A stretch of 64,000 nt of DNA, taken from positions 248,001-312,000 of the forward strand of contig NZ_FNKQ01000001.1 in the NCBI RefSeq assembly GCF_900100875.1. The letters are read 5' to 3'. The translations under genes and the position numbers were made by a program. Source of the stretch: Halopelagius longus (GTDB taxonomy: Archaea > Halobacteriota > Halobacteria > Halobacteriales > Haloferacaceae). Under the pieces are notes generated by a model that did no database searches, was not told the origin of the DNA, and was given only the letters and a program-made list of their open reading frames with translations. The first letter of the stretch is position 1; each line of letters opens with the position of its first letter. Of the stretch, positions 52,717-56,194 are shown in pieces.

Positions 52717-53769
52717 TCAGTCGTCGTCGCTCTTTATCGGGTCGGACTCCTCCTCGGAGAAGCCCTCGGACTGTTCGATGCGCTCTTTGGCCTCTCTGTC
52801 GAAGCGCGTCTCGATGTCTTGGAAGTCCTTGACGAACGAGAGTTCGTGGTGGGACTCCGTGGGGTGGCCGATGTAGCGCGATTCGAGGTCGAACTGCGCC
52901 TCTTCGTCGTTGTCGGCGATGTTGCTGAGGTCCTCGTAGACGGCGTGCGCGCCCGAGTGGAGGCCGTAGAGGGTGATGAAGATGTACTTGTAGCCCAAGT
53001 CGCCGAGTTCCTCGAACGTTAGCGGGTCCTCCTCTTCGGACCACGCGAACGACGACGAGTAGTTGAACGCGAGGTCGAGGTCCGGATGGGTCTCGTGGAT
53101 GGTCTCGGCGTACTCGACGGCGTCCTCGCGGGAGGGGTCCGGCATCTCGGGCCAGACCAAATCGACCCCGGCGTCGGCGTAGATGCGGCCGCGTTCGAGG
53201 TGTTCCTCCCAGTCGCCGTTCGCGGAGCCGTAGGCGTCGGTCCGGGCGATGATGACCGTGTCCTCGGACTGCTTTGCGTCCACCGCCGCCTCGAACCGGG
53301 CGCGGGCCTTGTCGCGGGAGACTATCTGCTTGCCGGCGATGTGGCCGCACCGCTTCGGCGTCGTCTGGTCCTCGATGTGAATCGCGGCGACGCCGGCCTT
53401 CTCGTACTCGCGGACGGCGCGGCGGACGTTGTGGATGCCGCCGTACCCCGTGTCGCAGTCCGCGACGACGGGCAGGTTCGTCGCCTCGACCATCCGCTTT
53501 GCGTTCTCGACCATCTCGGTCATCGTCACCATCTCCAAGTCCGGGAAGCCGAACTGGCCGAGGACCGTGGAGTAGCCGCTCATGTACGCGGCGTCGAGTC
53601 CGGCCATCTCTGCGAGGCGGGCGTCGAGAGCGTGGTAGATGCCCGGCGCGAAGGTGAAGTTCTGCTCGTCGAGAAGGCGGCGGAACTCCCGGCCGGCGGG
53701 GTTGTCGATGTCGCGGGTGAACACCTCCTCGGCTCCCATCTCGTCGCCGCCGATGGTCTCCTCGCTCAT
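52717..53769 (-). CDS. aceA: Isocitrate lyase
   Basis: A 350-residue ICL/PEP-mutase-superfamily enzyme that splits isocitrate into succinate and glyoxylate. The active-site loop is [10 protein letters not shown] with the catalytic Cys; metal site [17 protein letters not shown]; also HIEDQTTP and FNYSSSFAW. The C-terminal 35 residues are highly charged. Its ATG overlaps the stop of the repeat-protein gene by 4 nt. Malate synthase, the usual partner, is not in this window. Confidence 0.93.
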
Positions 53770-54065
53770 CGGCTTCCCCCCAGCGTCGATTCGATGCGAT
53801 TCAGTTGCGTCTTCAGGTCGGCGATTTCGCGGCGGACGTCGTCGTACTCCGCGTCCGGGTCGGTGTCCGTCTCGATGAGGGGGACCAACGGCGCTTCCGC
53901 GTCCTCCTCGTCGGTCGGTCGCCGCCTCTGCTCGGTCTGTCGATACCGTCCGGTGGTCGTGTCGATGATGGGAACCAAAGGTGCCTCTCTGTCTTCTTCT
54001 TCGGTCGGTCGGCGCGTTCGTTCGGCGGTTCGAGTCCGTCGGGTTCGTCGGGTCGTTCGTGTCAT
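53766..54065 (-). CDS. Repeat protein translationally coupled to isocitrate lyase
   Basis: A 99-residue protein. The first 20 residues are Arg/Thr-rich and basic. Then a 19-residue module occurs twice with a 30-residue period: [19 protein letters not shown] (18-36) and [19 protein letters not shown] (48-66). The C terminus is a short coiled-coil-like helix [22 protein letters not shown]. Stop and aceA start overlap (ATGA), so it is made together with the enzyme. The frame is open to 54215; I took 54065 because upstream codons lie in the CGGT-repeat leader. Unknown family. Confidence 0.65.
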
Positions 54066-54394
54066 GTTATGTCGCGTATCGGTCGGTCGGGTCGGTCGGT
54101 CGTCGGTGTCGTCGCGTTCGTTCGTGCGCGGACGCCTGCTACGTCGGATTTGGTGGTGCGTACGTTCATTCGTCGTCGCCTCACTCCCACGGAGGACCAT
54201 CGCACGAATAAACATAATGATTGATAGTGATAATATTCTTTAATGAGTTTAATTGTCTTCGGTACCGACGACGCACCCGGCCGAGACGCCGCGTTCGCCA
54301 CGGTCCGTTTTTCCCCGAAAAACGACGTTCTCGGCGTCTCACCCGTCGATTCTCCCGCATAGACCTGAAGTCGGGGTAGTCCTAACCTCCGCTC
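54066..54394. promoter_or_regulatory. Divergent control region of aceA unit and flavoprotein
   Basis: 329 bases. The block 54203-54252 is the most AT-rich of the window and contains TATA-like GTTTATTC (minus, 54206-54213) for the aceA unit, giving a leader of over 100 nt. Between 54074 and 54106 lies an imperfect run of CGGT tetranucleotides in the transcribed leader. Promoter elements for the plus-strand flavoprotein must lie right of 54250; no strong TATA box is seen close to its GTG. Confidence 0.5.
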
Positions 54395-56194
54395 GTGAAC
54401 CCGAACGCGGACCGACCGGACGACGAAAGTGCACCGACACCTGCGTACGAGGAAGTTCGTGCGCCCGTCCTCGTCGTGGGTGCGGGCGCGGCGGGCGCCC
54501 GGACGGCCATCGAACTGCAGGAACGCGGCGTCGAACCGTTGGTCGTCGGAAAACGCGACCACGGTGACGCCCACACGACGTGGGCGGCGGGCGGCATCAA
54601 CGCCGCACTCGGGTCGTTGGACCCCGAGGACGACTGGGCGATTCACGCCGCGGACACCCTGAACGAGGGACACTTCGTCAACGACCCCGAGGCGGTCGAA
54701 CTCGTCGCGAAGACGATGCCCGACCGAATCCGCGAACTCGACGAGTGGGGTGCGAACTTCGACCGGACCGAAGACGGGAAGATAAACCAGCGCTACTTCG
54801 GCGCGCAGTCGTTCCGTCGAACCGTATTCAGGGGCGACGAGACGGGGAGAGCGGTCCTCGACGCCCTCGTCTCGCGCGCGCAGGAGTTGGAGGTTCCCTA
54901 CCGCGAGAACGTGATGGTGACGACGCTCCTCTCCGACGGGTCGCGCGTCTACGGCGCGGCGGGGTTCGACATGGAGGACGGCCGCTTCCTGTTGTTCGTC
55001 GCGGACCACGTCGTCCTCGCGGCGGGCGGGTTCTCCGCCGTCTACGACCGCCACTCCTCGCGCGACGACGAGAACACCGGCGACGGTCCGGCCCTCGCCT
55101 ACGACGCGGGCGCGAGTCTGTTGGACGTCGAGTTCGTCAAGTTCCACCCCACCGGGATGGTCCAACTCGACCGGTACGACGAGGACTGGTCGGGCGAACT
55201 CGTGACGGAGGCCGTCCGCGGCGAAGGGGGGCGGTTGTACAACGGCGAGGGCGAACGGTTCATGGAGCGATACTCGCCGGACCAGATGGAACTCGACGCC
55301 CGAGACGTCGTCGCCCGCGCCATCGCCCAAGAGATACGCGAGGGCCGCGGTACGGAGGCGGGCGGCGTCCACCTCGACATCTCCCACCGCGACGGGTCGT
55401 TCATCCGCGAGCGTCTGCCGAAGATGTACGAGCGATTCCAGTCGCTCGGCGTCGATATGGCCGAAGACCCCGTCGTCGTCGCGCCGACGGCCCACTACAC
55501 GATGGGCGGCGTCGCAATCGACGCGACGACCGGCGAGACGGGCGTCGACCGACTGTACGCCGTCGGCGAGACGGCGGCGGGCGTCCACGGCGCGAACCGA
55601 CTCGGCGGGAACTCGCTGGCTGAAACCGTCGCCATCGCACCGTACGTCGGTCGCCACGTCGCCGAGAGAATCGCCGCGGGCGAGACCGACGACGAACTCG
55701 ACGCGGACGCCCGCCGCGCCGCCGAACGCGAGTACCGCCGCCTCGACCGACTCGAACGGGCCGAGGGAGACGTGCGCCCGCGGGAACTCGTCGCGGAACT
55801 CCGCGAGACGATGTGGGAACACGCCGGCATCCTCCGGGACGCGGACCGACTGGGCGACGGCATCGACCGAGTGCGCGAACTCCGCGACCGGATGGACGAC
55901 CTGCGCGTGGAAGGCGACAGGACCGGGAGGGACTTCGAGTTCGCGGTGGACCTCCCGTTCATGCTCACCGCGGCGGAGGCGACGCTCGTCGCCGCCCGGT
56001 ACCGAACGGAGTCCCGCGGGGCGCACTTCCGCGACGACCACCCCGAAACGAAAGCGGAGTGGCGGGTGAACGTCCTCGTCGAACGCGACGGATCGGACGC
56101 GAACGTTCGGACCCGGTCGGTGGCCGAACCGAGCGACCCGGTTCGGGAGGCGCTCGCGGCGGGGTACGAACTCGACTACCACCACCTGGAGTGA
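54395..56194 (+). CDS. Succinate dehydrogenase/fumarate reductase-type flavoprotein
   Basis: A 599-residue FAD protein starting with GTG. FAD motif PVLVVGAGAAGARTAIELQ; His60 in DAHTTWAAGGINAALG sits where SdhA/FrdA bind FAD covalently, while L-aspartate oxidases lack it. Active-site blocks EFVKFHPTGM, TEAVRGEGGRLYN, HYTMGGVAID and the C-terminal RYRTESRGAHFRDDHP are present. It should interconvert succinate and fumarate or act on a similar acid. No iron-sulfur or membrane-anchor subunits are nearby. L-aspartate oxidase is the alternative. It faces the aceA unit, whose reaction also yields succinate. Confidence 0.85.
   Translation: MNPNADRPDDESAPTPAYEEVRAPVLVVGAGAAGARTAIELQERGVEPLVVGKRDHGDAHTTWAAGGINAALGSLDPEDDWAIHAADTLNEGHFVNDPEAVELVAKTMPDRIRELDEWGANFDRTEDGKINQRYFGAQSFRRTVFRGDETGRAVLDALVSRAQELEVPYRENVMVTTLLSDGSRVYGAAGFDMEDGRFLLFVADHVVLAAGGFSAVYDRHSSRDDENTGDGPALAYDAGASLLDVEFVKFHPTGMVQLDRYDEDWSGELVTEAVRGEGGRLYNGEGERFMERYSPDQMELDARDVVARAIAQEIREGRGTEAGGVHLDISHRDGSFIRERLPKMYERFQSLGVDMAEDPVVVAPTAHYTMGGVAIDATTGETGVDRLYAVGETAAGVHGANRLGGNSLAETVAIAPYVGRHVAERIAAGETDDELDADARRAAEREYRRLDRLERAEGDVRPRELVAELRETMWEHAGILRDADRLGDGIDRVRELRDRMDDLRVEGDRTGRDFEFAVDLPFMLTAAEATLVAARYRTESRGAHFRDDHPETKAEWRVNVLVERDGSDANVRTRSVAEPSDPVREALAAGYELDYHHLE

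Follow-up and report, generated by a model that had tools for sequence, protein, structure and literature searches.

A microprotein family tied to isocitrate lyase in haloarchaea and its putative docking segment

In the 64,000-nucleotide stretch of the Halopelagius longus genome analyzed here (hereinafter, the window), the isocitrate lyase gene aceA is preceded by a small open reading frame (ORF) which belongs to a microprotein family without a name, tied to isocitrate lyase. Comparison of the family across haloarchaeal genomes suggests that the microprotein docks on isocitrate lyase via a short, nearly invariant segment or is otherwise closely associated with the glyoxylate shunt, a reading to which we assign a probability of about 0.5. 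The functional link between the microprotein and aceA, understood as a link to the shunt as a whole, is strong.

A duplicated module in the small ORF preceding aceA

The small gene is located on the minus strand of the window (53766..54065) and runs from ATG to TGA over 99 codons; its TGA and the aceA ATG share four nucleotides, ATGA (53766..53769, minus strand). Reading of the ORF and its homologues adjoining aceA in other genomes identify its 99-aa product as an aceA-linked microprotein of the APLVP type with two copies of the motif, and the ORF is presumably translated in H. longus. The downstream gene, aceA (52717..53769, minus strand), encodes a protein of 350 aa with Pfam and NCBIfam matches to the isocitrate lyase/PEP mutase superfamily; we assign it to isocitrate lyase because its relatives are isocitrate lyases, as judged by the phenotype of the aceA deletion in Haloferax volcanii. 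This deletion is reported to abolish growth on acetate, which was restored by aceA supplied in trans (PMC7746861).

Comparison of the small protein to itself revealed two modules, at residues 18-36 (53958..54014) and 48-66 (53868..53924, both on the minus strand), which are spaced with a period of 30 residues and are identical at 15 of 19 positions. The repeat exceeds the level expected by chance because, when the protein was shuffled 2000 times, the best 19-residue self-match reached only 10 identities. Our coordinates, module identity and shuffling control confirm the first-pass annotation, which had described this duplicated ORF overlapping aceA by 4 nt and had given no strand. The N-terminal head of the protein is basic, with nine Arg or Lys residues against a single Asp or Glu among residues 1-21, and a C-terminal helical region is predicted at about residues 74-95 (53781..53846, minus strand, limits approximate), based on alignment with a Haloferax segment that is itself predicted to be helical. 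Searches with the window protein yielded no significant match in Pfam or NCBIfam; ten relatives compared with Pfam and NCBIfam produced only weak matches, below the curated cut-offs, and profiles of the family had no match in PDB.

Conservation of the small gene at haloarchaeal aceA loci

The one other genome of the same genus that was examined carries the ORF beside aceA, with 68% identity, and the frame is open in the relatives. More broadly, an ORF of the family precedes aceA in 100 of 120 haloarchaeal loci, a set of related sequences consisting of 79 of the 107 aceA-containing genomes from the family of the window (f1; nearly all genomes outside genus g13 and 18 of g13) and 41 loci picked across other families, some of them from the same species as the 49 named loci described below. 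The expectations of the first-pass annotation, namely, that the ORF would be found next to aceA in a close relative, would be free of disruption and would have homologues beside aceA in other Halobacteria, were all borne out by these comparisons.

A scan of the 120 loci with fixed patterns recovered 97 family ORFs, 87 of the APLVP type and 10 of the ENTG type, to which examination of the reading frames by eye added three more (L179, L188 and L210). When the 49 named loci were scanned, 29 matches were obtained, one of which (L043) was spurious and was dropped; the matches came from Haloferax, Halogeometricum, Halorubrum, Halobellus, Haloprofundus, Halobaculum, Haloparvum and other haloarchaea, and reading of the frames contributed L040 and L056. 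Variants falling outside the first patterns, that is, these two loci, APLCP in g27 and the ENTG types, were all recognized by such frame reading. At L045, L050, L054 and L055, the segment was not seen in the upstream frames that were read, and these loci were counted as lacking it. The upstream ORF of L045 overlaps aceA but contains no PxVP segment, its C-terminus being RQPRLFDTND. At L097 and L099, an extra mini-ORF of 29 aa (DPRELSLFDTE) is located upstream of the PLVP ORF.

No small gene adjoins aceA at 20 of the 120 loci, which include all 13 loci of f4, the f10 locus, three of the six f5 loci, and L093, L139 and L140 of f1; the aceA of L093 groups with those of f4. On the aceA tree, obtained in a quick FastTree run, 10 label changes were counted, compared to 30.9 in shuffles. 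In Haladaptatus caseinilyticus, the small ORF precedes aceA-aceB and is labeled as a hypothetical protein in RefSeq. The Haloferax gene that follows aceA is 80% identical to aceB of Haladaptatus caseinilyticus, and aceB is found directly after aceA in both Haloferax and Haladaptatus.

Gene spacing and the upstream element

The spacing between the stop codon of the small gene and the start codon of aceA falls between -8 and +10 in 77 of 82 loci outside g13 and is exactly -4 in 52 of them. The small ORF of g13 (Halorubrum type) stops more than 100 nt short of aceA. The interval between the PLVP ORF and aceA contains another small ORF, with a conserved VPMxGTG segment (VPMxGTGxGPRPD), at 11 of the 19 Halorubrum-type loci scanned (18 of g13 and L141), for example, at L153, L155, L161 and L163. 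It has been reported that 45.2% of H. volcanii gene pairs spaced by -8 to +10 encode subunits of heteromeric complexes, compared to 5.6% of those spaced beyond +20 (PMC10666635), and coupling by termination-reinitiation is established in this organism (PMC6728339; PMC10666635). The overlapping Haloferax pairs for which termination-reinitiation is reported there (PMC10666635) resemble the loci analyzed here in the ATGA overlap and the short spacing, but the upstream member in our case is a microprotein predicted to be disordered, and relatives without the overlap exist.

Upstream of the small gene, there is a conserved AT-rich element (about CATTAAnGAATATTATCATTATnAATCATTAnnTTTAT; 54207..54245, minus strand), the 30-nt core of which was found with at most 8 mismatches at 97 of the 120 aceA loci, against a minimum of 13 mismatches in shuffled sequences. 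The element occurs both in families that have the small gene and in those that lack it, and is positioned before aceA where the small gene is absent. It is a candidate for the ace promoter/operator region and, more specifically, for an operator of the glyoxylate shunt. A divergent flavoprotein gene with the FAD_binding_2 and Succ_DH_flav_C domains (54395-56194, plus strand) has its upstream region in common with the small gene.

The conserved segment and the architecture of the proteins

The sole near-invariant part of the family is a segment of the form [D/E/G]-A-P-L-V-P or E-N-T-G-x-P-x-V-P; the first form can be extended to E-x-x-[D/G]-A-P-L-V-P-x-[L/I], and the second one is found in the shortest relatives. 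Among 135 copies of the segment, Pro is always present at positions 0 and +3, although both of these invariant residues are set by the P-x-[VIC]-P pattern with which the copies were chosen; Val occupies position +2 in 130 copies, Ala position -1 in 124 and Leu position +1 in 111, the other positions being more variable. The strict APLVP sequence is encoded within 700 nt upstream of aceA at 80 of the 120 loci, whereas each of three control sets of frames (the opposite strand, aceA itself and the antisense of aceA) gave 0 of 120. Synonymous codons vary, such that the 107 copies of APLVP are encoded by 44 different 15-mers, and the pN/pS ratio of the small gene is 0.32-0.52 (eight genera); taken together, these observations indicate selection on the peptide. 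The suggestion of the first-pass annotation that the repeated segment could be a docking peptide fares well in this respect, given that the segment is under strong selection. A search of 40 genomes for DNA encoding D/E-A-P-L-V-P returned, beyond the aceA-linked genes, only unrelated or implausible frames, and the idea of APLVP as a general docking word for many enzymes was dropped.

The proteins contain one or two copies of the segment, with single copies in members from Haloferax, Halogeometricum and Halobaculum as well as in short members, and their length among genus representatives ranges from 41 to 134 aa, the smallest relatives (41-47 aa) being without the basic head. Hence, the basic head and the duplication emphasized by the first-pass annotation are present in the window protein but do not define the family. 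A helix-like C-terminus is found in Haloferax, Halogeometricum and the window protein. For a Haloferax relative of 81 residues, AlphaFold2 predicts a single helix at residues 49-75, with blocks of pLDDT 87-93, and disorder in the remainder. The counterpart of the putative coiled-coil end of the original description is, in this prediction, a single helix, and in several genera other C-termini take its place: DPFELxLMEDxE or a close variant in Halobaculum and two other genera, and SHR[L/I] in f12 and f14. The APLVP and ENTG types hold the same place before aceA, in different families, and comparison of their profiles with hhalign gave a probability of 77% and an E value of 2e-5, over only 19 segment columns.

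Co-occurrence with aceA beyond adjacency

Profile A3 produced 65 matches in 60 of the 170 f1 genomes, each of which, upon comparison by hand with the aceA positions, was located upstream of aceA at a distance of up to about 320 nt; there were no A3 matches elsewhere, nor any in the 63 f1 genomes without an aceA match. The tail-plus-motif profile of the ENTG type, A5, matched 54 of 391 genomes of the order at E<1e-5, and all 54 proved to carry aceA when compared by hand, with aceA being present in 159 of the 391 genomes. Best A5 matches at E values of 0.001-0.008 in five more genomes were treated as noise; of these genomes, G197 carries aceA, and G200, G365, G385 and G411 have no aceA match.

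In f4, a broader profile detected the small gene in 27 of 49 genomes with aceA and in 0 of 60 genomes without it; it should be noted that genome-level Fisher values for this comparison overstate independence, the sequences being related, and that the p values are inflated by shared ancestry. Counted by genus, the corresponding fractions are 8 of 11 and 0 of 7 (p 0.004). In the 20 f4 genomes that have both genes on one contig, the small gene lies 103-2719 kb away from aceA. Because these unlinked copies still track aceA, translational coupling or position behind the ace promoter is insufficient to explain the link. The co-occurrence in f4 pertains to the ENTG type, and its relevance to the APLVP type of the window would hinge on the two types being homologous. 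At the same time, no match to the small gene was found anywhere in 22 of the 49 aceA-containing f4 genomes; together with the 20 of 120 loci without it, this means that the small gene is dispensable for the lyase.

Stand-alone small genes were detected in f4 and f5.g32; the 20 stand-alone loci read include f5.g47 copies that supplement an aceA-linked one. A search for a neighbour common to the stand-alone genes returned none. Based on Pfam matches, the L253 copy is flanked by a 3-hydroxyacyl-CoA dehydrogenase and an AMP-binding enzyme, with a thiolase near the L250 copy and CetZ near the L252 copy; L254, L264 and L265 have similar neighbours, as judged by eye from the N-termini, and the others are unrelated (primase, CetZ, inositol phosphatase). 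At the 20 stand-alone loci, the best versions of the ace promoter element had 9-18 mismatches, overlapping the shuffled minima of 10-16, and we do not claim that these relatives possess the element.

A putative accessory protein of the glyoxylate shunt

We favor a docking microprotein because the family combines a near-invariant segment, a free linker, a helix-capable tail, the overlap with aceA and co-occurrence with aceA when unlinked. The product of the small ORF would be a mostly disordered accessory protein of the glyoxylate shunt, with the APLVP/ENTG segment docking in a groove of isocitrate lyase and the C-terminal helix or short conserved tail providing a second contact, either for self-association or with another component. 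The succession of the ace promoter, the small gene, the ATGA overlap, aceA and, in some genera, aceB would allow the microprotein and the lyase to be made in a coupled ratio, and binding of the microprotein may then tune the assembly, stability or activity of the lyase. The lyase is the simplest partner for the microprotein; that it is the partner itself, and that binding has an effect on it, we infer.

In the AlphaFold2 prediction obtained for a naturally in-frame pair of small protein and lyase from Haloferax elongans (L027), with the intervening TAA read as Gly, the lyase was folded and the segment was undocked, with pLDDT below 50. We regard this as a weak negative, the model being a monomer prediction with one lyase chain, in which the small part was covered in the underlying alignment (A2) by only two near-identical Haloferax rows. 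The complementation of the H. volcanii deletion in trans is silent on the importance of the small gene because the latter may have remained in the complemented strain. What stands of the proposal in the first-pass annotation that the lyase has a partner in this protein is a genuine gene, with a layout suited to translational coupling and a tie to isocitrate lyase, with co-occurrence persisting when the genes are unlinked; the single docking prediction, on the other hand, was negative.

Possibly, the microprotein serves the glyoxylate shunt while its segment binds a protein other than the lyase, such as malate synthase, a regulator or a hub of acetyl-CoA metabolism. The link to aceA-containing genomes is inseparable here from a link to the remaining shunt, the gene next after aceA in Haloferax and Haladaptatus is aceB, some of the stand-alone copies reside beside beta-oxidation or thiolase genes, and the segment was undocked on the lyase in AlphaFold2; however, every adjacent case adjoins or overlaps aceA itself, and the remaining stand-alone neighbours are unrelated. 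Another reading, under which the small ORF is mainly a translation-coupling leader that lets ribosomes reinitiate at aceA and yields a peptide without a partner, draws on the ATGA overlap of most loci and on termination-reinitiation as reported for H. volcanii (PMC6728339; PMC10666635). We deem it improbable, given that coupling needs neither a constant PxVP segment with varying codons nor a pN/pS ratio below 1, and that stand-alone copies far from aceA still track it.

A nascent-peptide or attenuation leader, in which the PLVP-like stretch would stall ribosomes and gate the translation of aceA, has a certain appeal for a proline motif preceding a gene that would be required only on acetate, but the distance from the segment to the stop codon varies, there are one or two copies of the segment followed by a long tail, and relatives occur away from aceA, all of which makes such a leader very improbable. 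The low-complexity Arg/Thr/Pro composition is what might be expected of a chance ORF in GC-rich DNA, an explanation that conservation, the codon pattern and the 0 of 120 controls leave with hardly any credence. Both the leader-peptide and the chance-ORF readings were set aside on the strength of the APLVP controls, the pN/pS values and the co-occurrence of unlinked copies in f4.

Comparison with known systems

Small disordered proteins devoted to a single enzyme are an already known kind. CP12 and similar proteins that regulate central-carbon enzymes are likewise small, largely disordered and tied to a central-carbon enzyme, whereas for the haloarchaeal family both the complex and the partner are putative. 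In Methanosarcina mazei, sP26, acting on glutamine synthetase, and MtrR, acting on the Mtr complex, are described as archaeal small proteins directed at one metabolic enzyme; they differ from the present family in enzyme and lineage, and the haloarchaeal gene, in which the segment can be duplicated, overlaps that of the enzyme in most cases.

EPYC1 and CsoS2 are repeat linkers that gather enzymes. Members of the family with two copies, such as the window protein, may be read in the same way, as disordered chains that repeat a short enzyme-binding motif. By extension, the microprotein could be a dedicated subunit of the shunt, with a segment of 6-10 residues binding the lyase, and the duplication of the segment and the helix clustering the lyase, and possibly malate synthase as well, into an assembly for channelling or storage, which we consider unlikely. 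Unlike in EPYC1 and CsoS2, single-copy members are numerous and the smallest proteins have about 41 aa, so that multivalency is not a feature of the family; a motif repeated in every member was looked for and not found, the Haloferax, Halogeometricum and Halobaculum proteins being single-copy.

Among open-licence full-text papers, we found no accessory protein of archaeal isocitrate lyase; in the same body of texts, we found neither the microprotein family nor its link to isocitrate lyase nor its signature. The docking microprotein proposed here belongs to a family small enough to escape annotation and would represent a clear-cut example of a docking segment recognizable from conservation alone. 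The aceA deletion of Haloferax volcanii, with its clear phenotype, makes the family testable in that organism. Isocitrate lyase decides whether these cells live on acetate, and the family suggests that the enzyme which allows such growth has an overlooked partner.
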